Below, one piece after another: positions 22,550-34,228 of a stretch of 35,991 nucleotides of DNA. Every line of letters starts with the position of its first letter. Positions within the stretch are counted from its first letter, which is position 1. Under the pieces are notes generated by a model. That model was not told the origin of the DNA and did not search any database. It worked only from the letters and a program-made list of their open reading frames with translations. A program made the translations under genes and the position numbers. Location of the stretch: positions 1 through 35,991 of the forward strand of contig JAJRBZ010000071.1 of the NCBI GenBank assembly GCA_028679185.1. Direction: 5' to 3'. The stretch comes from Methanoregula sp. (GTDB lineage: Archaea; Halobacteriota; Methanomicrobia; Methanomicrobiales; Methanospirillaceae).

Positions 22550-23386
22550 ATGAAGACACCGGATGATATAGCGATCTCCGCCTCGCTTGCTGATGCTACC
22601 TTCCAGGCGTACCGCGAGGCCGTCATCCGTCTCCCACCGGATGTACTACAAGTGATCCGGAAGGCAGCCGCTGCCGAGACAAACCCGGTAGCTCGCGGCG
22701 AGTTTGCCAATATCCTGAAAAATATAAAAGAGGCAGAACGGCTCGGAGTACCGCTCTGCCAGGACACCGGTGTTCCGGTCGTGTACCTGACTATTCCTCC
22801 CGATGTTCCCCTGACCCGGGGCCTGTATGAAGGAGTTGCAGAAGGTGTCCGCCGTGCAACCCGTGAAATACCGTTGCGCCCCAATGTAGTTGATCCGCTC
22901 TCGCGGCACAATACCGGGGACAATACCGGTCAGGGAATGCCGGTGATCCATATACAACCCGGGGAAAGTTTGACCGTTACTGTCCTGCCCAAGGGTGCGG
23001 GTGCCGAGAATGTATCAGGGATTACCATGCTGCTGCCATCCCACCAGTACGGGATTGAAGGATTCATTGTTGAGACTATGCTGCAGGCTGAAGGAAGGCC
23101 CTGCCCGCCGGTAGTGCTCGGGGTCGGGATTGGCAGTACCTTCGATGGTGCTGCAGCGCTTGCAAAAGAAGCTCTCCTGCTGCCGGTAGATACAATGACG
23201 CCGTTTGAGCAGGAGATCTGCAACTCAGTGAACCGTCTGGGGATAGGCCCGATGGGACTGGGGGGTGACACGACTGCTCTTGCAGTGAAGGTGAAGACCG
23301 CCAGCTGCCATACGGCATCCTTGCCGGTTGCAGTAAACATCCAGTGCTGGGCTCACCGTCATGCGACTGTGGAAGTGAAGCGATGA
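22550..23386 (+). CDS. fumA: Fumarate hydratase, alpha subunit (class I, split type)
   Basis: A 278-residue Fe-S hydratase subunit. With the beta subunit it interconverts fumarate and malate and needs a [4Fe-4S] cluster. The family block GVPLCQDTGVPVVYL carries C70. GRPCPPVVLGVGIGSTFDGA carries C185, and TASCHTASLPVAVNIQC carries C253 and C266. C70, C185 and C253 are the likely cluster ligands by family comparison. SRHNTGDNTGQGMP is also conserved. Tartrate dehydratase uses the same fold, but gene context (next to kor/suc) favours fumarase. It overlaps the beta gene by 4 nt (ATGA). Confidence 0.9.
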   Translation: MKTPDDIAISASLADATFQAYREAVIRLPPDVLQVIRKAAAAETNPVARGEFANILKNIKEAERLGVPLCQDTGVPVVYLTIPPDVPLTRGLYEGVAEGVRRATREIPLRPNVVDPLSRHNTGDNTGQGMPVIHIQPGESLTVTVLPKGAGAENVSGITMLLPSHQYGIEGFIVETMLQAEGRPCPPVVLGVGIGSTFDGAAALAKEALLLPVDTMTPFEQEICNSVNRLGIGPMGLGGDTTALAVKVKTASCHTASLPVAVNIQCWAHRHATVEVKR

Positions 23387-23940
23387 ACACCCAGCCCGTT
23401 CAGCTGCATACTCCTCTGGGAAAAGAAGTCCTCGAACTTCATGCCGGTGACCATGTCGAGCTTTCCGGGATTGTCTATACCGCCCGTGACGAAGCGCATA
23501 TCCGCATGAAGGCTGAAGGTATCCCGTTCGATCCAATGGGTGCGGTTATCTATCACTGCGGCCCGGTCATCCGTGACGACAGGGTCATAGCTGCAGGTCC
23601 CACTACCTCTGCCCGGATGAACGAGCTTTCCGGTTTTTTACTTGACCACGGTGTTCGGGCACTTATCGGCAAAGGGGGTATGGGTGCACGGGTGCGTGAA
23701 CAGCTTAAAAACCGGGGCGTTTATCTTGCATTTACCGGTGGCTGTGCTGCACTTGCATCTTTGCATATGACCGTAAAAGGTGTATTTTTTAAGGATCTTG
23801 GCATGGCAGAAGCGATCTGGGTGATCGAACTTGACCACCTCCCGCTCGTGGTTGGTATGGATGCATATGGCAATGATCTCTTTGAGAAGGTGATACAACG
23901 TGCCAAATACGAATATGGACAGAACAGGAAAAAAGTATGA
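23383..23940 (+). CDS. fumB: Fumarate hydratase, beta subunit (class I, split type)
   Basis: A 185-residue partner of the alpha subunit, carrying the swivelling C-terminal domain that completes the active site. Visible family motifs are VELSGIVYTARDEAHIRM, GAVIYHCGPV, AAGPTTSARMNELSG, LIGKGGMG and YLAFTGGCAAL. I placed the start at ATG 23383, overlapping the alpha stop, because upstream codons (from 23344) read the alpha gene in another frame. It ends 72 nt before korD, where a new TATA box appears. Confidence 0.9.
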   Translation: MNTQPVQLHTPLGKEVLELHAGDHVELSGIVYTARDEAHIRMKAEGIPFDPMGAVIYHCGPVIRDDRVIAAGPTTSARMNELSGFLLDHGVRALIGKGGMGARVREQLKNRGVYLAFTGGCAALASLHMTVKGVFFKDLGMAEAIWVIELDHLPLVVGMDAYGNDLFEKVIQRAKYEYGQNRKKV

Positions 23941-24012: not shown

Positions 24013-24285
24013 ATGAAACTCGCCATTGACGAGACCCGGTGCAAGGGTTGCAATCTCTGTACGAAGGTCTGCCCGTATAAGATCTTTAAAGAAGGAAAAA
24101 AAGCCAACCGCCGGGGCATTATCATCCCTGAACTCGACCGTCCTGAACGGTGTTCAAACTGCAGGCTTATGCACCTCTATGGACGAACGCTCTGCGGTGT
24201 CTGCCAGCTTATCTGTCCTGACCAGGCAATCCACTGGGTGGAGGAACAACCGTACGAACCCCAAAAGGTGGCGATTGAATATTGA
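24013..24285 (+). CDS. korD: 2-oxoglutarate:ferredoxin oxidoreductase, delta (ferredoxin) subunit
   Basis: A 90-residue bis-[4Fe-4S] ferredoxin-like electron-transfer subunit. The first cluster motif is canonical, C10-x2-C13-x2-C16-x3-C20-P. The second is irregular: C47-x2-C50, then a 10-residue insertion, then C61-x2-C64-x3-C68-P. The insertion (RLMHLYGRTL) separates the first pair from the rest of the motif, so ligand assignment is uncertain and one cysteine is extra. The delta role follows from position directly before korA. The next gene starts at a TTG overlapping this stop. Confidence 0.87.
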   Translation: MKLAIDETRCKGCNLCTKVCPYKIFKEGKKANRRGIIIPELDRPERCSNCRLMHLYGRTLCGVCQLICPDQAIHWVEEQPYEPQKVAIEY

Positions 24286-25382
24286 CACAGATTGAGTTCT
24301 GGCAGGGTAACACTGCCTGTGCTGAGGGAGCGCTTGCAGCCGGTTGCCGGTTCTTCGGGGGGTATCCGATCACACCTTCGACCGAAATTGCAGAGCACAT
24401 GGCGCTCAAGCTCCCAAAAAAGAACGGTGTTTTTATCCAGATGGAAGATGAGATTGCCGGTATTGCGTCGGTGATTGGTGCATCATGGACAGGTGCCCGG
24501 GCGATGACGGCAACGAGCGGACCTGGTTTTTCCTTGATGATGGAAAATATCGGGTATGCTGCAATGACCGAAACTCCTTGCGTGATTGTGAATGTGCAGA
24601 GGGGGGGACCGTCCACCGGTCAGCCGACCATGGGTGCACAGGGGGATATGATGCAGTGCCGGTTTGGCTCTCATGGCGATTACTCCGTAATCGCGCTTTG
24701 CCCCGCGAGCGTCCAGGAGATGTACGAACTTACCGTTAAGGCATTCAACCTCTCAGACGAATACCGGGTCCCGGTATTTCTTATGGCTGATGAGATTGTC
24801 GGACACATGCGGGAAAAGATCGTCGTTCCGGATTCTGTTCCGTATGTATCGCGGAAGGAACTTGTCAGGGGAATGCCGCCGTTCAGGGTTGACATCGACC
24901 TCATTCCGGGGTTTCCGCAGTTTGGCAAAGGGTACGGGGTCCATGTGACCGGGCTGACGCACGATGAACGCGGATACCCATGTGCAACAAATCCAAAACT
25001 GCATGAAGCGCTCGTGAAGCGGCTTGTGAACAAGATTGAATCAGCCCGCCACACGATCGCGAATTATGAAATTCTCAATCCAGATGCTAATCAGGTCTTC
25101 ATCGCTTATGGGGCTCCTGTGCGCACGGTGCAACAGGTAATGCACGATCATCCGGACAAGAACATAGGATTTCTAAGGCTCAGGACGGTCTGGCCATTCG
25201 CTGAATTTGCACTGAAAGAATTCAAAAATGCGAAGCGATTCCTCGTGCCTGAACTGAACCTTGGCCAGATAGCCCGTGAGATCGAGCGCTATGTGGATAT
25301 ACCGGTTATCAGTCTGCCAAAACTGGGCGGCGACCTTCACACCCCAGCCGAACTGTTAGCAGCACTGGAGGTACCGCAATGA
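24282..25382 (+). CDS. korA: 2-oxoglutarate:ferredoxin oxidoreductase, alpha subunit
   Basis: A 366-residue subunit of the four-subunit KorABCD enzyme, which makes 2-oxoglutarate from succinyl-CoA, CO2 and reduced ferredoxin, or the reverse. The N-terminal pyrimidine-binding-type domain has FFGGYPITPSTEIAEHMA, the hallmark of this subunit; RGGPSTGQPTMGAQGDMMQC follows. The C-terminal part has the domain II fold (VFIAYGAPVRTVQQVM). The start is TTG 24282, overlapping the korD stop by 4 nt, which implies translational coupling. The sequence fits Kor rather than pyruvate or isovalerate enzymes, and its place beside sucCD agrees. Confidence 0.92.
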   Translation: MTQIEFWQGNTACAEGALAAGCRFFGGYPITPSTEIAEHMALKLPKKNGVFIQMEDEIAGIASVIGASWTGARAMTATSGPGFSLMMENIGYAAMTETPCVIVNVQRGGPSTGQPTMGAQGDMMQCRFGSHGDYSVIALCPASVQEMYELTVKAFNLSDEYRVPVFLMADEIVGHMREKIVVPDSVPYVSRKELVRGMPPFRVDIDLIPGFPQFGKGYGVHVTGLTHDERGYPCATNPKLHEALVKRLVNKIESARHTIANYEILNPDANQVFIAYGAPVRTVQQVMHDHPDKNIGFLRLRTVWPFAEFALKEFKNAKRFLVPELNLGQIAREIERYVDIPVISLPKLGGDLHTPAELLAALEVPQ

Positions 25383-26164
25383 GTTTTGAGGACTGGTATC
25401 GTCAGGATCGCCTCCCGCATATATTCTGTGCCGGTTGCGGGAATGGAACAATTATTAACTGTACGCTCGCTGCAATCGAACAGATGGCCTGGAAGAAAGA
25501 GGAAACGGTTTTTGTTTCCGGTATCGGGTGTTCCTCACGGGCACCCGGCTATATCGCTGCAGACTCGCTCCATACCACCCATGGGCGTGCAATTGCTTTT
25601 GCAACCGGGGTAAAACTTGCAAATCCTGACCTTAATGTTGTTGTTTTCACGGGTGATGGCGATCTGGCAGCTATCGGTGGCAACCATTTCATCCATGGAT
25701 GCCGGCGAAACATTGACCTCACCGTGGTCTGCATGAACAACCAGATTTATGGAATGACCGGAGGACAGGGCAGCCCGACAACACCCCGGGGATGTATCTC
25801 TTCAACAACACCGTACGGTTGTGCTGAAACGCCCTTTGACCTCTGTGAGCTCGCCATTGCTTCAGGAGCCAATTATGTCTCCCGCTGGACATCCTATCAT
25901 GTAAAAGAGCTCGAAAAATCAGTCCTTGCCGGTTTACAGACTCCGGGCTTTTCATTTATAGAGGCGCTGGTACAATGTCCTACCGCTTTTGGACGAAGGA
26001 ACAAGTTTAAACAGGTTTCTGACCAGGTAGATTACCTTCGGACACATACGATGCTCAAAGCGAAACGTGACCGGTTGCTGGATCAGGGACAGCACATTCC
26101 CCCGGATATGTATATAGTTGGCGAACTTGCACGCAGGAACCGCCCTGCGCTTGGGGTGAAATAA
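25379..26164 (+). CDS. korB: 2-oxoglutarate:ferredoxin oxidoreductase, beta subunit
   Basis: A 261-residue thiamine-diphosphate-binding subunit. The TPP/Mg2+ motif is VVFTGDGDLAAIGG followed downstream by VVCMNNQIYGMTGGQ. N-terminal cysteines in IFCAGCGNG, and further on GIGCSSRAPGY, contribute to the [4Fe-4S] cluster site of this family. It overlaps korA by 4 nt and shares its last base with the korC start. Confidence 0.93.
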   Translation: MSFEDWYRQDRLPHIFCAGCGNGTIINCTLAAIEQMAWKKEETVFVSGIGCSSRAPGYIAADSLHTTHGRAIAFATGVKLANPDLNVVVFTGDGDLAAIGGNHFIHGCRRNIDLTVVCMNNQIYGMTGGQGSPTTPRGCISSTTPYGCAETPFDLCELAIASGANYVSRWTSYHVKELEKSVLAGLQTPGFSFIEALVQCPTAFGRRNKFKQVSDQVDYLRTHTMLKAKRDRLLDQGQHIPPDMYIVGELARRNRPALGVK

Positions 26165-26703
26165 TGAGACACGAGGTGCGGTTCTCAGGGTTCGGTGGGC
26201 AGGGAATCATCCTTTCCGCAGTGATCCTGGGCCGGGCGGCGGTAATGCATGACAACAAGTTTGCAGTCCAGACGCAGGTCTATGGACCGGAAGCCAGAGG
26301 CGGGGCTTCAATGAGTGCGGTAATTATTGATGATGCACCGATTCTCTTTCCCAAGGTCGCAAACCCTGACATTTACGTGATCATGTCCCAGGAAGGCTTT
26401 GAGAAGTATGGAGTTGATGCAGGCAAGGAAGCGGTGATGCTGGTCGATTCTACGCGTGTTTACTCCCGTCCGCAGTGCAGGTATATTGAGATCCCGGCAA
26501 CACGGGAGGCAAAACAGACACTGGGACGCGATATTGTAGCAAACATTGTTATGCTCGGGGCACTGGTCGCTTCAACGCAGGTTGTCAGTGAAGCGGCGCT
26601 GGAAAAAGCAATTCTTGACTCCGTGCCCAAGGGCACCGAGGCACTCAATCAGAGAGCGATGAAAAAAGGCATTGAACTTGCTGCAGGGAGCACGCATCCA
26701 TGA
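26164..26703 (+). CDS. korC: 2-oxoglutarate:ferredoxin oxidoreductase, gamma subunit
   Basis: A 179-residue CoA-binding-type gamma subunit. The N-terminal FSGFGGQGIILSAVILGRAA motif and the YGPEARGGASMSAVII block are characteristic. It overlaps the preceding gene by one base and sucC by 4 nt. Gene order D-A-B-C followed by sucCD makes a compact module for 2-oxoglutarate/succinyl-CoA/succinate interconversion. Confidence 0.92.
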   Translation: MRHEVRFSGFGGQGIILSAVILGRAAVMHDNKFAVQTQVYGPEARGGASMSAVIIDDAPILFPKVANPDIYVIMSQEGFEKYGVDAGKEAVMLVDSTRVYSRPQCRYIEIPATREAKQTLGRDIVANIVMLGALVASTQVVSEAALEKAILDSVPKGTEALNQRAMKKGIELAAGSTHP

Positions 26704-27785
26704 AATTACGCGAATATGAGGCAAAAATGGTGGTAAAAGAGGCCGGGATCCCCGTCCCGGCAGGATTCCTGATCAAATCAGCTGACGAACTCACTCCTCA
26801 TCTTGGTGCACTCGGCGATGCCTTTGTGCTCAAGGCGCAGGTGGATGTCGGTGGCAGGGGAAAGTCCGGTGGTATCCTCATGGCCGGCAAGGCAGACGGC
26901 ATAAAGATGGCAAAGGAACTCTTCGGCAGGCAGATCAAGGGCCTGCCCGTGAAGGAGATCCTTGCCGAACAGCGGCTTGACATCCAGCATGAGTACTATC
27001 TCTCCATAACCGTTGACCGCTCAAACAAACAACCCCTCATCCTCTTTACCGAAGCCGGAGGGGTGGATATTGAGATCACGGCAAAGGAGCACCCTGAAGC
27101 GATTCGCAAGGTGATAGCGAACCCGCTGATGCGGGAAATTCCCCAGTTCATGCTCCGGGAACTGGTCGGAACAGCGCCCAAGGAGATTGGTTCGATTATC
27201 AATAAGCTGTATCGCGTATTTCTTGAAAAGGACGCACTGCTCGCTGAGATCAACCCACTGGTTACTACCCCTCGTGGTATATTTGCGGCCGATGCCAAAC
27301 TTATCATTGATGATAATGCTCTAGGGCGCCAGGGATTCACGGTTAACCGCGATCTTACCGATCGCGAACGGGAGGCAGAGAAACACGGTTTCTCGTATGT
27401 TGAACTGAACGGTACAATAGGTGTGATTGGAAACGGGGCCGGGCTCACCATGTCCACACTTGATCTCATCGAGTTCTATGGCGGCAAAGCAGCAAATTTT
27501 CTCGATGTTGGCGGAGGTGCCGAAAGCGAGCGGGTCATGCAAGCTGTACGGCTGGTCGGCAGCGTTCCATCGGTAAAGGTTATAGTGGTCAATCTTCTCG
27601 GCGGTATCACGAAATGTGATGAGGTAGCAAAGGGCATAATCTCTGCAGATATCCCCCAGAAAGTGATCGTACGGCTCGCGGGAACCAATGAGGCGGAAGG
27701 CAGGGCGATGCTCTCAGCAAAAGGGTACGAGATGCTTGACACAATGGATCAGGTGGTGAGGAAGGCCGTGGAGGTGGCAATATGA
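26700..27785 (+). CDS. sucC: Succinyl-CoA ligase, beta subunit
   Basis: A 361-residue ATP-grasp subunit that, with SucD, converts succinate, CoA and ATP into succinyl-CoA. MKLREYEAKMVVKEAGIPVP opens the protein. The nucleotide site has FVLKAQVDVGGRGKSGGI, Mg2+ ligands are in LAEINPLVTT and IFAADAKL, and the C-terminal CoA-ligase domain has ANFLDVGGGAESERV. Length is within the normal range. It overlaps both korC and sucD by 4 nt. Making succinyl-CoA feeds KorABCD in the reductive direction. Confidence 0.93.
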   Translation: MKLREYEAKMVVKEAGIPVPAGFLIKSADELTPHLGALGDAFVLKAQVDVGGRGKSGGILMAGKADGIKMAKELFGRQIKGLPVKEILAEQRLDIQHEYYLSITVDRSNKQPLILFTEAGGVDIEITAKEHPEAIRKVIANPLMREIPQFMLRELVGTAPKEIGSIINKLYRVFLEKDALLAEINPLVTTPRGIFAADAKLIIDDNALGRQGFTVNRDLTDREREAEKHGFSYVELNGTIGVIGNGAGLTMSTLDLIEFYGGKAANFLDVGGGAESERVMQAVRLVGSVPSVKVIVVNLLGGITKCDEVAKGIISADIPQKVIVRLAGTNEAEGRAMLSAKGYEMLDTMDQVVRKAVEVAI

Positions 27786-28660
27786 TCTACGGGGACCGGA
27801 ATTCCGGGATACTCGTTCAAGGTGCTACAGGAAAACAGGGAGAGTTTCATATCGGCCTTATGAATAACTATGCCAGACAGGTGGGTGGCAGGGGTGTTGT
27901 TGCAGGTGTGACGCCCGGCAAAGGTGGCAGGGAGGTACACGGGGTACCGGTCTATAATACTGTAAAGGAAGCAATGCGGGACTATGATATTTCAGCCAGT
28001 GTCATTTTTGTGCCCGCTGCAGCCGCAGCCGATGCGATAATGGAAGAAGCAAACGCCGGGATCGAGACTATCGTGGCAATCACCGAACATATCCCGGTGC
28101 ACGACACGATGAAGGCAATTGCCTATGCAAAAATGGAGGGATGCGCCGTAATTGGTCCCAACTGCCCAGGGCTCCTGTCTCCTGGAGAAGTAAAGATGGG
28201 GATCATGCCCGCTGGTCTTTTCTCGGGAGGGAATGTCGGAGTTATCTCCCGGAGTGGAACGCTCACCTATGAAGTCGTTGATGAACTCACTCGTGCAGGC
28301 ATCGGTCAGAGCACGGTGATCGGTATCGGTGGTGACCCAATCATCGGCCTGACATTTGTCGATGTGCTCAGACGGTTTGAGAAAGACCCTCAGACAAAAG
28401 CCGTGGTCCTGATCGGGGAAGTGGGGGGCAACCTCGAAGAGGAAGGCGCAAAATCAACTGATCTGCCTATTGTATCGTACATCGCCGGCATCTCTGCTCC
28501 ACCTGATAAACGCATGGGCCATGCCGGTGCGATCGTTGAGGGAGGAGAAGGCGATGCCCGCTCCAAGATCGCCAGGCTCAAAAAGATGGGTGTACCTGTT
28601 GCCTCCCGCCCATCCGAGATACCTGAAATGGTCCGGGATTTGTTTCATGGTCAATGCTGA
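27782..28660 (+). CDS. sucD: Succinyl-CoA ligase, alpha subunit
   Basis: A 292-residue subunit with an N-terminal CoA-binding domain (SGILVQGATGKQGEFHIGLM) and the phosphohistidine site in KRMGHAGAIVEGGEGDARSK. Also visible are AVIGPNCPGLLSPGEVKMGI and GVISRSGTLTYEVVDELTRA, both family hallmarks. It overlaps sucC by 4 nt and ends the kor-suc run; a T-rich stretch follows. Confidence 0.94.
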   Translation: MIYGDRNSGILVQGATGKQGEFHIGLMNNYARQVGGRGVVAGVTPGKGGREVHGVPVYNTVKEAMRDYDISASVIFVPAAAAADAIMEEANAGIETIVAITEHIPVHDTMKAIAYAKMEGCAVIGPNCPGLLSPGEVKMGIMPAGLFSGGNVGVISRSGTLTYEVVDELTRAGIGQSTVIGIGGDPIIGLTFVDVLRRFEKDPQTKAVVLIGEVGGNLEEEGAKSTDLPIVSYIAGISAPPDKRMGHAGAIVEGGEGDARSKIARLKKMGVPVASRPSEIPEMVRDLFHGQC

Positions 28661-28680
28661 TAAAAATTTTTAATTTTTTG
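28661..28680 (+). terminator. T-rich terminator after sucD
   Basis: The stop codon is followed by an AAAAATTTTT hairpin-like tract and a TTTTTT run, consistent with archaeal intrinsic termination. Confidence 0.5.
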
Positions 28681-28710
28681 AGCAAAAAGATCAAAAATAC
28701 TATAAATACT

Positions 28711-28873
28711 CTAGGTGGGTTCTATCTCCTGTTTTGTCTCCTCTACAAATGTGCCCGCTCCTGATACCGCTCCTGATATTGTACCAAGTAATTCTTCTCC
28801 AGATGTACGTGAGCCGTGAGGGATAGCACGGATATCTGGAGAAATGTAATCTTCAATGGGAATATTTTGTCAT
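28711..28873 (-). pseudogene. Small frameshifted reading frame
   Basis: The minus strand has an ATG at 28873 (GGGAG upstream) giving MTKYSH then a stop. With a single-base shift in the early A-rich stretch the frame continues into a protein-like sequence: IPIEDYISPDIRAIPHGSR, then SGEELLGTISGAVSGAGTF and VEETKQEIEPT, ending at TAG 28711-28713. That makes about 52 residues. Either it is a decayed small gene or it uses an unusual start codon. An inverted repeat TCTCCAGAT/ATCTGGAGA (28796-28804 and 28834-28842) lies within it. I recognise no family. Confidence 0.3.
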
Positions 28874-29008
28874 GCTTTCTTCTCCCTCTCATATCCTGTC
28901 GCAGGGATTTAATTCTGTTTTATCTGAATTGATTGCAGGGGTATCGAACTGTTACTACATTGCGATTCTTTATGCAGTATGCGTGATAACTGATAAGAAC
29001 AATACAAG

Positions 29009-30376
29009 ATGTCGGCCATACAGTATTTTCCCATACCTCCGGAATTGTTCGCACTTGCCTGCGAAACAGTCAGCAGGCGTGTTTCGCGGTTGCCTTTTTT
29101 AAGAAGTGATGTTATGGTCACTGGTGAGTTACTCGGTGTTGCTATGGAATCCCTTAATGCCGAATTTAAAAAAAAACTTGCACTTTATACACCTTCCAAC
29201 TCTGCCATAAAGACAGAAAACGGACTTGACTCGCGTATCGAAGAGCGATTAAGGATTTCGGGAAAAAAGGTCGTTCCTGTGATTACTGAGGTGCTCTGCA
29301 GTGCAGGTATTGCAGAAACAACTGAAATCACCAACCTGTTATCTCACCAGACCCGTACTGGAATCCGGCTCCTTCCCCCGTGGACCTGGCATACCGCATC
29401 AGGAAAAGTGCCAGCAATGAGGTATGAGGGATCGGTAAATGGCGATGAATCTTCACTGGCGTCCATGATGAGCATGTGTGCGGTATGTCGTACCGGAATT
29501 TTAAACCGGATTTTCGGAAAACAGCTGTTTGGCATTCCCCGAACGGAATTCTATTTGGAGTGTACCTATTGCGGTGCAAAATTTATCCCTGTAGGTACTC
29601 AGTTCCGGTTAGTATCCATTGCCACTTTCCGTGACCCTCTCTGGAAAAAACACCTCGATTATACGTTTCCTGCAGAGATGTGGTCAGCTATCGCCCGGGG
29701 CACCATTGGCTTCAGAAAAACAATCAAGGCGACAGCGGGAAAAACAACACTAAGCGCTTCCGGCAAATCATCCGATGGTAATCTGACGCAGCTGAAGGAT
29801 GGATCTCTGGCAGTGCCTTGTGGGGAAAAAACACTCTATTTCAAGCCGGTAAAACTTGATTTTATTGGAGGGATGAGGCAAGATTTCTTTGCCCGTGCAC
29901 AAAAACCCCTTCAGGAAATTTTAAAAAATCCTGCATACAGTCATCTGATTCCATTGGTAAATGCTAAGTATTCCAACTACGTGCTTATGAAATCCGGACT
30001 TTTTTTACGACAACTCAAAGAACGCCACGATCCGTTCTACCTCGAATTCCTTAACAATTACGGAGATGAAAAGTATGGCACGTTCCGGCTGGATGAATCA
30101 GATGACGGTGATAAAAAAGGTGTGCTTGTCATTGTTGTCAACCGGTCAATATATTATGCCGTCGATTGCCAGGTGTCCTTCCGTATCACAATCAACAACG
30201 CATTAGGGAGGATTTCTCCCGAGGACTGTTTCCTTGGCGGGGATAGCAACCGCTGCCGGATAAATGCTCTCATCAGCAATAACAGGAATGATGCTGGTAT
30301 CTGTATCCACAGATGCGAAAAGGAAGATGAAAGGGTGCTCATCACTGAACAGCTGAAAGGGATTATCTCCAAATGA
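29009..30376 (+). CDS. Unrecognised protein with central zinc-ribbon-like cysteines (455 aa)
   Basis: A 455-residue soluble protein that I do not recognise. Four cysteines in two CxxC pairs, C157/C160 (CAVC) and C185/C188 (CTYC), sit 25 residues apart in the middle and probably bind one zinc. The N-terminal 110 residues are helical. The C-terminal half mixes strands and helices (LKDGSLAVPCGEKTLYFKPV, then FFARAQKPLQEILKNPAYSH). No signal peptide, TM helix or catalytic motif is evident. It starts at ATG 29009. A second Cys-pair protein follows 111 nt downstream on the same strand, so the two may act together. Confidence 0.65.
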   Translation: MSAIQYFPIPPELFALACETVSRRVSRLPFLRSDVMVTGELLGVAMESLNAEFKKKLALYTPSNSAIKTENGLDSRIEERLRISGKKVVPVITEVLCSAGIAETTEITNLLSHQTRTGIRLLPPWTWHTASGKVPAMRYEGSVNGDESSLASMMSMCAVCRTGILNRIFGKQLFGIPRTEFYLECTYCGAKFIPVGTQFRLVSIATFRDPLWKKHLDYTFPAEMWSAIARGTIGFRKTIKATAGKTTLSASGKSSDGNLTQLKDGSLAVPCGEKTLYFKPVKLDFIGGMRQDFFARAQKPLQEILKNPAYSHLIPLVNAKYSNYVLMKSGLFLRQLKERHDPFYLEFLNNYGDEKYGTFRLDESDDGDKKGVLVIVVNRSIYYAVDCQVSFRITINNALGRISPEDCFLGGDSNRCRINALISNNRNDAGICIHRCEKEDERVLITEQLKGIISK

Positions 30377-30487
30377 TGACAAATAATAATTACGCAGGAG
30401 CTATATCGATGCCGATCAGAGAATTTTTCATATCTAATGAGAACATTATAGTTATCCACTCTGGATACCGGAAAAGGGAGCTCACCG

Positions 30488-31852
30488 ATGAAATGCCCTC
30501 ATTGCGGAATGAATATACGGGATAACATAGATGTTTGTGGCTATTGTGGCGGAAAAATAGTACAAGAATCAGAGAAATCTCCCTCTGCTACGGGTAAAGC
30601 TGATCTTTCCGGTAGCAGTATGGTGCAAAAGGGGGAAGGGCAGCAGGAAGATCCTGAAGCAGAAGAAGAAGGAGGAATCTCTGTTTACCTGCAACCTGGA
30701 GAGCAGGTACTCATTGGTTCGCTTAATATTGCAGTTAAAAAATTTTTTTTCCATGCTTACCTTACAAACCAGCGAATCTTTTTAATCGATACGCAGGAGA
30801 AAAAGGTCAAGGTTACGGCAAAAGATATTCCGCGTGATACGATTGCCGGCAGCATTATCGAGTTTTCAGAAAGTTCGGATCCCGTTCTGGTTCTGTCCCT
30901 TAAATCCACTGATGATGAAATCAAGACCATGAAACTCATTTTTATCCAGAATGGCATGGACCGGTCTGACGAGATCGATGAATGGATAACGCTTCTCCAT
31001 GAAGAAGACCAAGTAAAAGAATCATTGGTACAGCCAGCTGGTGAACCTTCAGAACCACTGGAAATGGCTATACCTGTTGAGCGGGAAAAGCCCCCTCAAA
31101 AACAGGAACTGCAACCAAAAAGAAAACCAGGCAAAGACCACGAAAAACAACCACCGGTCAAACGTCATATCCTTCTCCATAAAGTGCAGGAGCAGGAGTA
31201 TGAGGTTGAGGAACCATCCCGCCCCCCGCGACGTGCACAGGTCCGGGAGGTACCCGATAAGCTCAAAAAACCGGATGAAGTCCTTGAATCAGAAATGGGG
31301 ACGCCTCCCATGAGAAAGGCGGATATTCAACCGGTGCGCAAACATGAAGTGCAATCGGCTATGAAAGTCGCAATGAAAAATGCAATGCATCCACTTAAAT
31401 CCTCATCGTTTCAGACCGTGAAAAGGCCGGTAACAGAACCGGCGTCGATACCTGAAAAAGCACCCGAAACGGAAGAATCGACACAAATCCCCGGCCATCC
31501 CGTAATCAAGGGAAAAGTCCAGAGAGCACCAGCTCACGATGAAGGAGCTGAAATGCCCTCGTTTTGTCAAAACTGCGGGAAAAAACTCCCTCCAGCAGCA
31601 AACTTCTGTCCCGGGTGTGGAACAAAACTGGGAACGTACAGGACCATCTCAGATGACAGAATTCCGGAATACTCCCATGAAAAGAAAGGAACTCATCATG
31701 ATGAACCTGTCCGTGAGAAGAAAGGAACTGCCCATAAAGAGAGCATCGATGAGGAAGATATGGAGGATGAGACCCAGGTATCGACCAAGCTTCCCGCAAA
31801 AAAACCAAAGAGAAGCGAAATGACGATTCTCCACAAATTCCTCAGACGATAA
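30488..31852 (+). CDS. Zinc ribbon - PH-like domain - zinc ribbon protein (454 aa)
   Basis: A 454-residue soluble multidomain protein. The N-terminal zinc ribbon has C3/C6 and C17/C20 (MKCPHCGMNI, DVCGYCGGK). At about residues 58-178 there is a PH-like domain of the short bacterial/archaeal type (LQPGEQVLIGSLNIAV, then AYLTNQRIFLIDTQEKKVK). A Pro/Lys/Glu-rich, probably disordered linker spans about 180-350. A second zinc ribbon follows at 356-386 (C360, C363, C374, C377), then a charged tail. PH-like domains of this kind often bind lipids or proteins; the role here is unknown. GGGAG lies 8 nt before the ATG. A possible 38-codon frame (30409-30525) overlaps its start. Confidence 0.72.
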   Translation: MKCPHCGMNIRDNIDVCGYCGGKIVQESEKSPSATGKADLSGSSMVQKGEGQQEDPEAEEEGGISVYLQPGEQVLIGSLNIAVKKFFFHAYLTNQRIFLIDTQEKKVKVTAKDIPRDTIAGSIIEFSESSDPVLVLSLKSTDDEIKTMKLIFIQNGMDRSDEIDEWITLLHEEDQVKESLVQPAGEPSEPLEMAIPVEREKPPQKQELQPKRKPGKDHEKQPPVKRHILLHKVQEQEYEVEEPSRPPRRAQVREVPDKLKKPDEVLESEMGTPPMRKADIQPVRKHEVQSAMKVAMKNAMHPLKSSSFQTVKRPVTEPASIPEKAPETEESTQIPGHPVIKGKVQRAPAHDEGAEMPSFCQNCGKKLPPAANFCPGCGTKLGTYRTISDDRIPEYSHEKKGTHHDEPVREKKGTAHKESIDEEDMEDETQVSTKLPAKKPKRSEMTILHKFLRR

Positions 31853-31997
31853 CTCAGTTTTTTAACTCCTTTTTCAAGAACGTTCTAATGATAACGGACT
31901 TTTTCAGGTTGGACGCAAAGGTTGAGAATCGTAAAATGCTGCCGATCTGCATTCAGTTCAGTTTGAATATTGAGAACATCAATGATGCCGGACGTGC

Positions 31998-32005
31998 TAT
32001 ATAAA
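31998..32005 (+). promoter_or_regulatory. TATA box for the mat-his operon
   Basis: TATATAAA lies about 105 nt upstream of ATG 32105, giving a predicted leader of about 77 nt. GAGG at 32094-32097 is the likely SD. I recognise no riboswitch in the leader. Confidence 0.4.
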
Positions 32006-32104
32006 TTACTGTGAATCATAAAAAAACAAAAAACTATTGTATATTAGAAATCGTTATATGAATTCCAGTTCCTGTTAATAGTACGCATTATTACGAGGAA
32101 ATCA

Positions 32105-33307
32105 ATGAAGAGAAATATCCGGATTGAAGCTTTAGCACAGATTCCTTTGGAGAAACAACAAATTGAACTTGTCGAGCGCAAATGTCTCGGTCATCCCGAC
32201 AGTATCGCGGATGGCATTGCAGAATCAATCAGCAGGGCGCTCTGTAAGGAATATCTCGAAGAGTTTGGCGCAGTCCTGCACCACAACACGGACCAGGGTG
32301 AAATCGTAGCCGGCGAATCCAACCCAAAGTTCGGCGGGGGTAAGGTTATACGGCCTATTTTTATCCTGATTGACGGTCGTGCAACAAAACGATTCAATGA
32401 CGTATCTATTCCTACTGATGCGATTGCAGTTGAAGCAACAAGGAATTATCTCCGCACCCATTTCAAGACCTTAAACATGGAACGGGATGTCATTATGGAC
32501 TGCCGCCTGGGGACAGGATCGACCGATCTCCAGGATGTATTCAAGCCTCACAACGGAAGAGTTCCCCGGGCGAATGATACTTCATTCGGTGTCGGACATG
32601 CCCCGTTTTCTGATGTTGAAACTATTATTAAGAACGTCAGTGATTTTATTGATGACAAACTGCGACTGAAGTATCCCGCGATAGGGCAGGATATCAAAAT
32701 CATGGGACTGCGCGACGGGAACACTATCACCCTGACTGTTGCCTGTGCAATTATCGACAGGTACTGTGCAGATATCCAGCAATACACAGAATACATGGAG
32801 ATCCTCAAAGAACAGATCGGCAGGGTAGCCAAAAAGAGCACGAAGCGCAAGGTGGTTGTCCATCTCAATACGGGTGATAACATCAGGAATGACAGCATCT
32901 ACCTGACCGTTACCGGCACCTCTGCTGAAATGGGCGATGACGGGTCAGTCGGACGCGGAAACCGCTGCAACGGGCTTATCACTCCCAACCGCCCGATGAG
33001 CATGGAGGCGACGAGCGGGAAGAATCCGATCAACCATGTCGGCAAGATCTATAACCTGCTTTCGACGCAGATTGCCACCGACTGTGTAGAACAGGTTGAG
33101 GGGATTGATGAGATGTATGTCCGTCTCCTATCCCAGATCGGACAGCCCATTGACCGCCCGCTTGTGGCAAGTGTACAGGTACTGCCCGTGGAAGGTGTCA
33201 AAATGCAGAATATCAAGGGTGAAATTGAGGGGATTGTTGATCACTGGCTCGAGAATGTAACTGATATTACCGATAGAGCAATCCGCGGCGAGCTCAAGAC
33301 GTTCTGA
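32105..33307 (+). CDS. mat: S-adenosylmethionine synthetase, archaeal type
   Basis: A 400-residue archaeal-class methionine adenosyltransferase, making SAM from methionine and ATP. Family motifs are [18 protein letters not shown] near the N-terminus, [20 protein letters not shown], and [20 protein letters not shown] followed by [20 protein letters not shown]. Length is exactly that of the archaeal family, which is very divergent from bacterial MetK. GAGG lies 7 nt upstream. hisG begins 6 nt after its stop, so it heads an operon with hisG-hisA-hisB; SAM and histidine synthesis both consume ATP. Confidence 0.95.
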
Positions 33308-33313
33308 ACGCTT

Positions 33314-34228
33314 ATGGCAAAACAGGTTAAATACAGCAAGAAAAAAACTACACCCGCTCCTTTTTCATCGATTGTCCGGCTTGCAATTCCCAACAAAGGC
33401 AGGATCGCAGCACCAATTATGGATCTTATCGAAAAGAGCGGGCTCCACTTTCCTGAAATCGGGGAACGGCGGTTGATTACAAAGACACTCGACCCTCAAG
33501 TAGAAATCCTGTTTGCCCGGCCAATTGATATACCCGAATACGTTGCAACAGGTGCAGCTGATCTCGGAATCACCGGTCATGATATGGTGGTTGAACGGGA
33601 GTCTCACGTAAAAGAGCTCCTGGATTTACAGTCAGGAAAGGCAAAACTTGTACTTGCGGTGCATGAAGATTCATCGATTACATCAGTGCAACAACTCAAC
33701 GGGATGAAAGTTGCCACTGAATTTCCGGTGATTACAAAAGCGTTTTTCGCGAAACACAATACGAGTATCAAAGTTGTTCTTGTCGGGGGAGCATGTGAGG
33801 CAACCCCGCACCTCGGTATCGCTGATGCGATCGTTGACCTTTCGAGTTCGGGAACAACCTTAAAGACCAACCGTCTCCGAATTATCGATGAGGTAATGGA
33901 GACTTCCACACATCTAATCGCAAATAAAGAATCACTACGGACAAAAAGAGAGAAGATTGATGAGATTTACCTTGCTCTGGAAAGTGTCATCCGGGCTCGC
34001 GGACAGTGTTATCTGATGATGAATGTAAAGAGGACTTCCCTTGATGCAATAAAACATGTGCTACCCGGACTTTCCGGCCCCACAGTTATGGATGTTGCTT
34101 CAAATGAAAACCTCGTCGCCGTTCACGCAGTCGTAAACGAGGAACGGGTCTACTCCTTAATTAACTCGCTGAAGCGTGCAGGTGCAAAGGACATTCTTGT
34201 CATGGCGATCCAAAGAATGATACGCTGA
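33314..34228 (+). CDS. hisG: ATP phosphoribosyltransferase, long form
   Basis: A 304-residue HisG of the long form, catalysing the first, feedback-controlled step of histidine synthesis (ATP + PRPP). The catalytic part covers about residues 20-220, starting [20 protein letters not shown]. The PRPP loop is [16 protein letters not shown]. The C-terminal HisG_C regulatory domain (about 225-304) means no HisZ is needed. An extra Lys-rich N-terminus ([18 protein letters not shown]) precedes the usual start, but no internal Met supports a shorter start. It lies between mat and hisA with gaps of 6 and 5 nt. Confidence 0.93.

Follow-up and report, generated by a model that had tools for sequence, protein, structure and literature searches.

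Do two unrecognised zinc-binding proteins that are encoded side by side in a methanogen work together, and if so, at what? This question is raised by a window of 35,991 nucleotides (the whole stretch of DNA that was analysed) from Methanoregula sp. (GCA_028679185.1, contig JAJRBZ010000071.1), which is contig C4 of a 2.1-Mb genome in the genus labelled g1 (39 genomes). Two adjacent plus-strand genes for proteins of 455 and 454 residues had been noticed here from the sequence alone; both were found as intact open reading frames (ORFs) in the expected places, and we call them A and B (Table 1). Our tentative answer, built on structural models, is that B may be an adaptor with a tail that docks at the membrane and A its nucleic-acid-binding partner. 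We consider this chain as a whole possible rather than probable.

Both genes are under purifying selection. The ratio of non-synonymous to synonymous substitution rates (dN/dS) in four species pairs was 0.15-0.20 for A and 0.11-0.20 for the whole of B, with 0.06-0.09 for the PH part of B and 0.13-0.24 for its linker, which indicates that the disordered part of B is constrained too. Neither protein had been recognised as part of a known system, and this held in our searches. A matched no Pfam (listed to E ≤ 1), NCBIfam or PADLOC family, B gave only zinc ribbons and weak partial matches in Pfam and NCBIfam, and a characterised housekeeping family was rejected for both. At E ≤ 0.01, no PADLOC model of a known anti-phage defence system matched A or B. 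In PHROGs, B matched mostly over its zinc-ribbon stretches and the best match of A had E 0.15, while none of 50,697 phage records matched B, leaving a phage origin of B unsupported. Sequence searches of the PDB returned a single match for A (E 0.29) and ten for B up to E 1; the best of these (RNF4, E 0.0011) lies over the second zinc ribbon and was judged unspecific. No Rfam RNA reached the gathering score in 27500-33400, and no description of the A or B families was found in open PMC papers and family libraries.

Predicted folds and lost catalytic residues of protein A

An AlphaFold2 model of A was obtained from a 30-row alignment (mean predicted local distance difference test score, pLDDT, 80). 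The fold searches described here test mainly the best-matching domains of the A and B models. The sequence-only reading had characterised A by a central Cys4 site. This site is present, with all four cysteines invariant in alignments of 22 and 30 rows, but the description was incomplete: structure prediction of A alone gave winged-helix and GIY-YIG-type folds, the winged helix preceding the Cys4 site and a degenerate GIY-YIG domain ending the protein. These two domains had gone unnoticed before, as had a conserved DNA element in the gap between A and B.

In VIA-align comparisons, residues 10-124 of the model superposed on Fur/PerR-type winged helices (9a4a_B, Z 9.9, 2.2 Å over 89 residues; 2fu4_A, Z 8.3). 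The likeness to Fur/PerR- or MarR-type regulators is confined to this winged helix, with no Pfam family at E ≤ 1, and the zinc ribbon was recognised by its invariant CxxC pairs only, with no match to a zinc-ribbon family. Residues 257-455 superposed on T4 EndoII (Z 9.9, 2.9 Å over 114 residues), on the GIY-YIG domain of UvrC (Z 8.3, 2.3 Å over 82) and on Hpy188I (Z 7.4).

Sequence comparisons support the GIY-YIG homology of A independently of the fold. Profiles of A found separate GIY-YIG proteins (G100, E 2.0e-8; G107, 2.0e-7; G369, 3.3e-11; G249, 2.1e-9), and the reverse search with the G100 protein matched A in 19 genomes (E 2.8e-10 to 9.7e-4; 2.5e-4 for the A of the window). Sub-threshold Pfam GIY-YIG matches were obtained for the proteins of G100 (E 0.04), G107 (E 0.045) and G369 (E 0.0011). 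The last of these is annotated as 'GIY-YIG nuclease family protein' and is encoded on a Halorubrum trapanicum plasmid; a plasmid search with a relative of the GIY-YIG domain of A, not with A or B, yielded the annotated Halorubrum protein. A Cys...CxxN motif is common to A and these GIY-YIG proteins.

The catalytic set of an active GIY-YIG nuclease we take to be Tyr/Arg/Glu/Asn. When five such GIY-YIG proteins were aligned with 30 A sequences, the GIY Gly, Cys407 and Asn419 were kept in 30/30 and Cys416 in 29/30 at the aligned columns. The catalytic Arg and the terminal Asn were lost from all 30, the GIY Tyr remained in eight and the YIG Gly in 11, the Glu column not being alignable. Since both Arg and Asn are missing throughout, A is best called a pseudonuclease, and we regard it as likely to be one. 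Alternatively, the catalytic residues of A could have moved to other positions, so that A would be an active, structure-specific GIY-YIG nuclease which B tethers at the membrane. Such an enzyme would agree with the T4 EndoII match, with the GIY Tyr of the eight homologues and with E441, which is present in at least 90% of 22 rows; with neither Arg nor Asn at the aligned positions of any homologue, we consider it very improbable. Judged from its modelled domains, A is probably a nucleic-acid-binding protein.

Parts of A recur in other proteins. The A-type winged helix was seen before TPR repeats (L066:1095-2582) and, by eye, following a beta-propeller and a probable membrane helix (L065:2244-4316), and the A-type Cys4 ribbon also occurs in zinc-ribbon proteins of other families (L067, L068 and L207). 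The latter three were considered as 'Rosetta stone' fusions of an A-type ribbon with a PH domain. Their PH part rests on weak CheF_arch matches (L067, E 0.0057; L207, E 0.16; none listed for L068), and they were not used as evidence. One g1 genome (G027, L094:4491-4565) has an in-frame TAA near the start of gene A, as would be seen in a pseudogene or after an assembly error.

Protein B and its predicted PH-like domain

For B, the sequence-only reading had given the layout zinc ribbon, PH-like domain, disordered linker and zinc ribbon, and had likened it to a scaffold. This layout was borne out. Zinc-ribbon families matched B at both ends (PF13240, E 9.2e-12, over two stretches), structure prediction of B alone gave a PH fold, and the linker (residues 182-354) has mostly pLDDT <50 and is predicted to be disordered. 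The resemblance to a scaffold is supported at the level of layout.

The model of B has a pLDDT of 59 overall and is better over residues 63-180, where seven strands and a C-terminal helix form a predicted seven-stranded beta sandwich with a helix cap (residues 74-180). Foldseek gave nine matches at E ≤ 0.001, the best of them Vps36 (2cay_A, E 3.4e-4). In VIA, the domain superposed on BBS5 (Z 11.8, 2.3 Å over 101 residues), MTMR2 (Z 11.5), Vps36 (Z 11.4, 2.9 Å over 112) and TFIIH p62 (Z 11.4). We assign it to a predicted PH fold and no more finely than that; in Pfam, B matched no PH family and no CheF at E ≤ 1. A PH fold does not by itself reveal a ligand, lipid or other.

The Vps36 match raises the idea that A and B form a distant ESCRT-II-like unit, in which a GLUE-like PH domain, zinc fingers and a winged helix are split over two proteins. 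A paralogue of B gives a sub-threshold match to PF11605 Vps36_ESCRT-II (E 0.017), and Asgard archaea have a Znr_PH_CC_SB protein (PMC10936438). However, the PH fold of B matches BBS5, MTMR2 and TFIIH p62 as well, and the model of B contains no winged helix, where Vps36 carries PH/GLUE and tandem winged helices in one protein; the model of A has one. Snf7/ESCRT-III (PF03357) was found in 0/39 g1 genomes, in a search whose control was weak, being matched in 1/14 genomes and below the cut-off. We regard an ESCRT-II-like unit as extremely improbable.

Conservation in B extends well beyond the PH-like domain. In the 34-row alignment, the linker motif QPPVKR and the tail ILxKFLRR are invariant, and the ribbons and the AMK-type motif are invariant or nearly so (A295 invariant, A291 and M292 in at least 90%). 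MinD-type C-terminal amphipathic tails are short helices with basic and bulky hydrophobic residues that target proteins to the membrane. A basic-hydrophobic tail was found in 26/31 short and 27/34 long forms of B compared with 4/172 control ORFs, by a rule that was written after the tails were seen; seven of the 34 long B fail this rule though all 34 end in ILxKFLRR.

Paralogues with a PH-like domain are encoded in the same genomes. In many of them a P[VI]K[KR] motif comes next, and one zinc ribbon, a hydrophobic helix (by eye) and an additional part follow. One paralogue (L072:2988-4826) has a Yip1 membrane domain in Pfam (E 3.9e-13) besides its zinc ribbon, and two PH-like regions were seen in it by eye. 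Some paralogues adjoin a seryl-tRNA synthetase-like gene, again by eye.

Distribution of the pair and the conserved element in its gap

A scan of the genomes with the B alignment gave 51 loci, of which 34 hold a full or partial B (L076-L109; Methanoregula, Methanoregulaceae, Methanomicrobiales) and 17 are short matches over its second zinc ribbon. In G005 (C37:81487-82104), a second, partial match to the linker-to-ribbon part of B was seen in an open frame of 212 residues (E 2.7e-25). A is present in 37/39 g1 genomes. Whether the two genes always lie together had been left as a question by the sequence-only reading, and within g1 they do wherever the contigs permit a verdict: 33/39 genomes have A and B next to each other on the same strand (in G021, whose genome is one contig, across its ends), and in the other six (G007, G012, G023, G024, G030 and G032) a contig ends at or beside the pair. 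That they form a fixed pair is not supported, since B stands without A in other genera, A is a remnant in G073, a gap of 2.4 kb separates the genes in G069, and B apparently has its own promoter. G073 and G069 belong to genus g20, in which five of eight genomes have the genes adjacent and G072 has neither.

Among 108 genomes of the family, the long B, with its extra zinc ribbon and conserved motifs, was found only in the two A-bearing genera. This common range of A and the long-B features is the main argument for contact between the two proteins. Other genera of the family have a short B with a PH-like domain, a linker, one ribbon and mostly a basic-aromatic tail. It lies behind sucD in 36/36 loci that were read from these genera, and A was found in none of them. 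The 36 loci comprise all 31 genomes with a match of E <1e-70, each with B adjoining sucD, and five of 14 genomes with weaker matches, from genera g21 and g25. In each of the latter five, the ORF of B overlaps the sucD match or starts about 4 nt or less from where that match ends. In several genera, a methyltransferase-like gene on the opposite strand was seen by eye between short B and metK (L162-L171). Because B is more widely spread than A, we infer that B is probably the older gene and A the newer.

The same slot was surveyed in 18 genomes, which belong to other families or to f1 genera that lack B. A DacZ-like ORF was found behind sucD in 12/12 genomes of families f2-f6, and the four that were tested all matched DacZ_A and DAC in Pfam. 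Three f1 genomes likewise have a DacZ-like ORF behind sucD (G113, G114 and, by eye, G096). In G065 the ORF is B-like, in G064 no ORF of either kind lies within 1.5 kb, and the G066 sequence breaks off at this place. In the slot between sucD and metK, other Methanomicrobiales families have dacZ, for a c-di-AMP cyclase, directly behind sucD where this family has B (L246-L262). In three g1 genomes, the four DAC proteins that were read are long fusions, one of them confirmed as response regulator-PAS-DAC.

These arrangements would also arise if A and B were independent neighbours, with B an old member of a fumarase-kor-suc-B cluster, acting as an adaptor or scaffold for those enzymes or the membrane, and A a newer gene that was inserted between sucD and B and acts on nucleic acid in some unconnected role. 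The 36 loci without A, the close junction of sucD and B in g21 and g25, the presence of dacZ in the same slot of other families and the apparent promoter of B all suit such independence. On the other hand, the adjacency is genus-wide apart from the six contig ends, A and the long-B features share one range, and one case of A decay was seen, whereas A was never seen alone at loci assembled on both sides. We consider independence somewhat unlikely.

The gap between A and B contains a noncoding element that is strongly conserved. Mean pairwise identity in the 80 bp before B is 0.67 (28 loci), compared with 0.45 before A (28 loci) and 0.61 before metK (27 loci). It rises to 0.78 in the stretch from −78 to −26 before B, in which 33 of 54 columns are at least 85% identical (28 loci). 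The element can be traced in all 33 aligned loci, from both A-bearing genera, and is weakest in L088, L103 and L105. A pattern scan found a single copy in 6/7 genomes and none in G016 at three mismatches. Its right half, GAGAACATTATAG, resembles an archaeal transcription factor B recognition element (BRE) with a TATA box, a naming that is ours, and BRE/TATA-like stretches such as GGAAACAATATAA stand before several short B. The conserved block upstream of the TATA-like part was not seen before the ten short B examined. A hairpin before B was also considered. Its dyad in the window is broken in several relatives (e.g. L093, L094, L098 and L106), and we claim no RNA structure.

As judged from these sequences, the element looks like the promoter of B itself. 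It is still there in G073 (L100), which has no more than a remnant of A, and in G069 (L105), where A is 2.4 kb away, which suggests that it serves B even without A beside it. Alternatively, A could be a local regulator whose winged helix and zinc ribbon bind the element and set the expression of B, with no contact between the two proteins needed. The strength of its conservation relative to the regions before A and metK, its single copy in most genomes scanned, its presence in both A-bearing genera and the predicted DNA-binding type of fold in A are all consistent with such a regulator. The element nevertheless remains where A has decayed or moved off, and the zinc ribbon and pseudonuclease domain of A exceed what a simple repressor needs. 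A regulatory role of this kind appears unlikely to us.

Table 1. Positions of the genes, predicted domains and conserved element in the window.
Feature	Position	Strand	Description	Basis
Gene A	29009..30376	+	455 aa; predicted winged helix, zinc ribbon, GIY-YIG-fold pseudonuclease domain (likely)	ORF, model pLDDT 80
A residues 10-124	29036..29380	+	predicted winged-helix domain (Fur/PerR/TFE-alpha-like fold)	VIA-align
A residues 155-203	29471..29617	+	Cys4 zinc ribbon (C157, C160, C185, C188)	invariant cysteines
A residues 346-455	30044..30373	+	GIY-YIG homology region, catalytic residues lost	fold and sequence comparison
Conserved element	30414..30461	+	noncoding, about 48 bp, highly conserved	alignment of 33 loci; right half BRE/TATA-like
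Gene B	30488..31852	+	454 aa; predicted PH-like domain after a first zinc ribbon, then a linker (predicted disordered) that carries conserved motifs, a second zinc ribbon and a predicted basic helix at the C terminus	ORF, Pfam zinc ribbons, model
B residues 1-24	30488..30559	+	N-terminal zinc ribbon (C3, C6, C17, C20), long form only	alignments; absent from short forms read
B residues 63-180	30674..31027	+	predicted PH-like domain	model, Foldseek, VIA
B residues 210-226	31115..31165	+	conserved linker motif, ends in invariant QPPVKR	alignments
B residues 285-298	31340..31381	+	conserved linker motif of AMKxAMK type; predicted short helix 291-297	alignments, model
B residues 359-381	31562..31630	+	second zinc ribbon (C360, C363, C374, C377)	Pfam, alignments
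B residues 436-454	31793..31849	+	conserved C-terminal tail; predicted helix 447-453; candidate membrane- or partner-docking segment	alignments, model
Fumarase parts	22550-23940		upstream of the pair	Pfam
kor and sucCD genes	24282..28660	+	2-oxoacid oxidoreductase and succinyl-CoA ligase, 5' of the A-B pair	Pfam
sucD	27782-28660			
metK	32105..33307	+	archaeal S-adenosylmethionine synthetase, downstream neighbour of B; his genes also lie downstream	Pfam, synteny

Proposed explanation and known systems

Taking the proteins and their distribution together, we propose that B is a cytoplasmic adaptor and belongs to a family of Methanomicrobiales proteins that combine a PH domain with zinc ribbons. 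These domains would be heads that bind proteins, possibly lipids, and the conserved short motifs of the disordered linker would serve for docking. The basic, hydrophobic C-terminal helix would probably dock at the membrane, at the place where the paralogues have a likely transmembrane helix. A would be non-catalytic, with its winged helix and zinc ribbon binding nucleic acid and its GIY-YIG domain retained for its structure rather than to cut. A may have arisen beside an older B in the Methanoregula lineage, where B would have acquired one more zinc ribbon together with new motifs in its linker and tail; these additions would most simply be docking sites for A. The pair would then link nucleic acid to an adaptor on the membrane side.

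Several observations weigh against this proposal. Foldseek returned no match for the model of A at E ≤ 0.001, and the fold assignments of A rest on VIA Z values of 7.4-9.9, of which those <8 may be unspecific. The tail is missing in 5/31 short B, its hydrophobic moment is not distinctive (mean best value 0.56 vs 0.51 in 185 controls, B itself being included among the controls), a combined hydrophobic-moment rule was passed by 8/65 B and 7/185 controls, and the likely transmembrane helix of the paralogues is a reading by eye. As B seemingly has its own promoter, co-transcription of A and B is doubtful. Short B is found throughout the 36 loci of other genera with no A, and the appearance of A together with long B counts as only one event in evolution. 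Finally, in G073 a remnant of A of 96 residues lies beside an intact long B that has kept the long-B motifs, so either something besides A helps to maintain these motifs or A was lost only recently.

The family of B forms an ordered series: a soluble short B next to sucD, paralogues of membrane type, and the long B of the two A-bearing genera with its added zinc ribbon and docking-like motifs. This makes the question directly testable, with genomes that have B but no A as natural controls. At its most ambitious, the proposal would describe a methanogen-specific machine, in which a catalytically dead GIY-YIG protein keeps nucleic acid at the membrane by way of B, a PH/zinc-ribbon adaptor that once had another role beside enzymes of the reductive tricarboxylic acid cycle and was then co-opted, as an archaeal analogue of a nucleoid-membrane or mRNA-membrane tether; this extension we consider improbable. 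Should the partnership of A and B prove false, a new protein family would remain, together with an archaeal promoter-like element of striking conservation.

To our knowledge, little is established on the ligands of archaeal PH-like domains. The predicted fold of B 63-180 is common to the PH-like/GLUE and GRAM domains of Vps36, BBS5, MTMR2 and TFIIH p62 and to the prokaryotic PHb domain (PF08000), from which B differs in its zinc ribbons and its motif-rich disordered linker. In PMC2817789, PHb proteins (PF08000) are described as ring-forming; this paper on bacterial PH domains and the SHOCT paper (PMC3581485) serve as context only. A precedent for PH-like domains as protein platforms is CheF, an archaeal adaptor whose PH-like domains are proposed to bind proteins, according to PMC9126983. 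In that paper, CheF has two PH-like domains and a CheY-binding C-terminal domain, and B gave no CheF match. The nearest archaeal zinc-ribbon/PH protein that we encountered is the Asgard Znr_PH_CC_SB protein (PMC10936438). Like B, it is archaeal and has zinc ribbons beside a PH domain, and it is expected to be membrane-associated; unlike B, it has a coiled coil and a steadiness box, which were not seen in the model of B.

A resembles the GIY-YIG nucleases T4 EndoII, the N-terminal domain of UvrC, Hpy188I and the Halorubrum trapanicum protein in its predicted fold, in the GIY Gly and in the Cys pair and Asn of the subfamily motif. It differs from them in having neither the catalytic Arg nor the terminal Asn (30/30) and in its fusion to a predicted winged helix and a zinc ribbon. 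For B, the PH-like paralogues of Methanomicrobiales agree with it in the order of PH-like domain and zinc ribbon, often with the P[VI]K[KR] linker motif between them. After the ribbon they go on with a hydrophobic helix and one more part, whereas B ends in a short basic tail.

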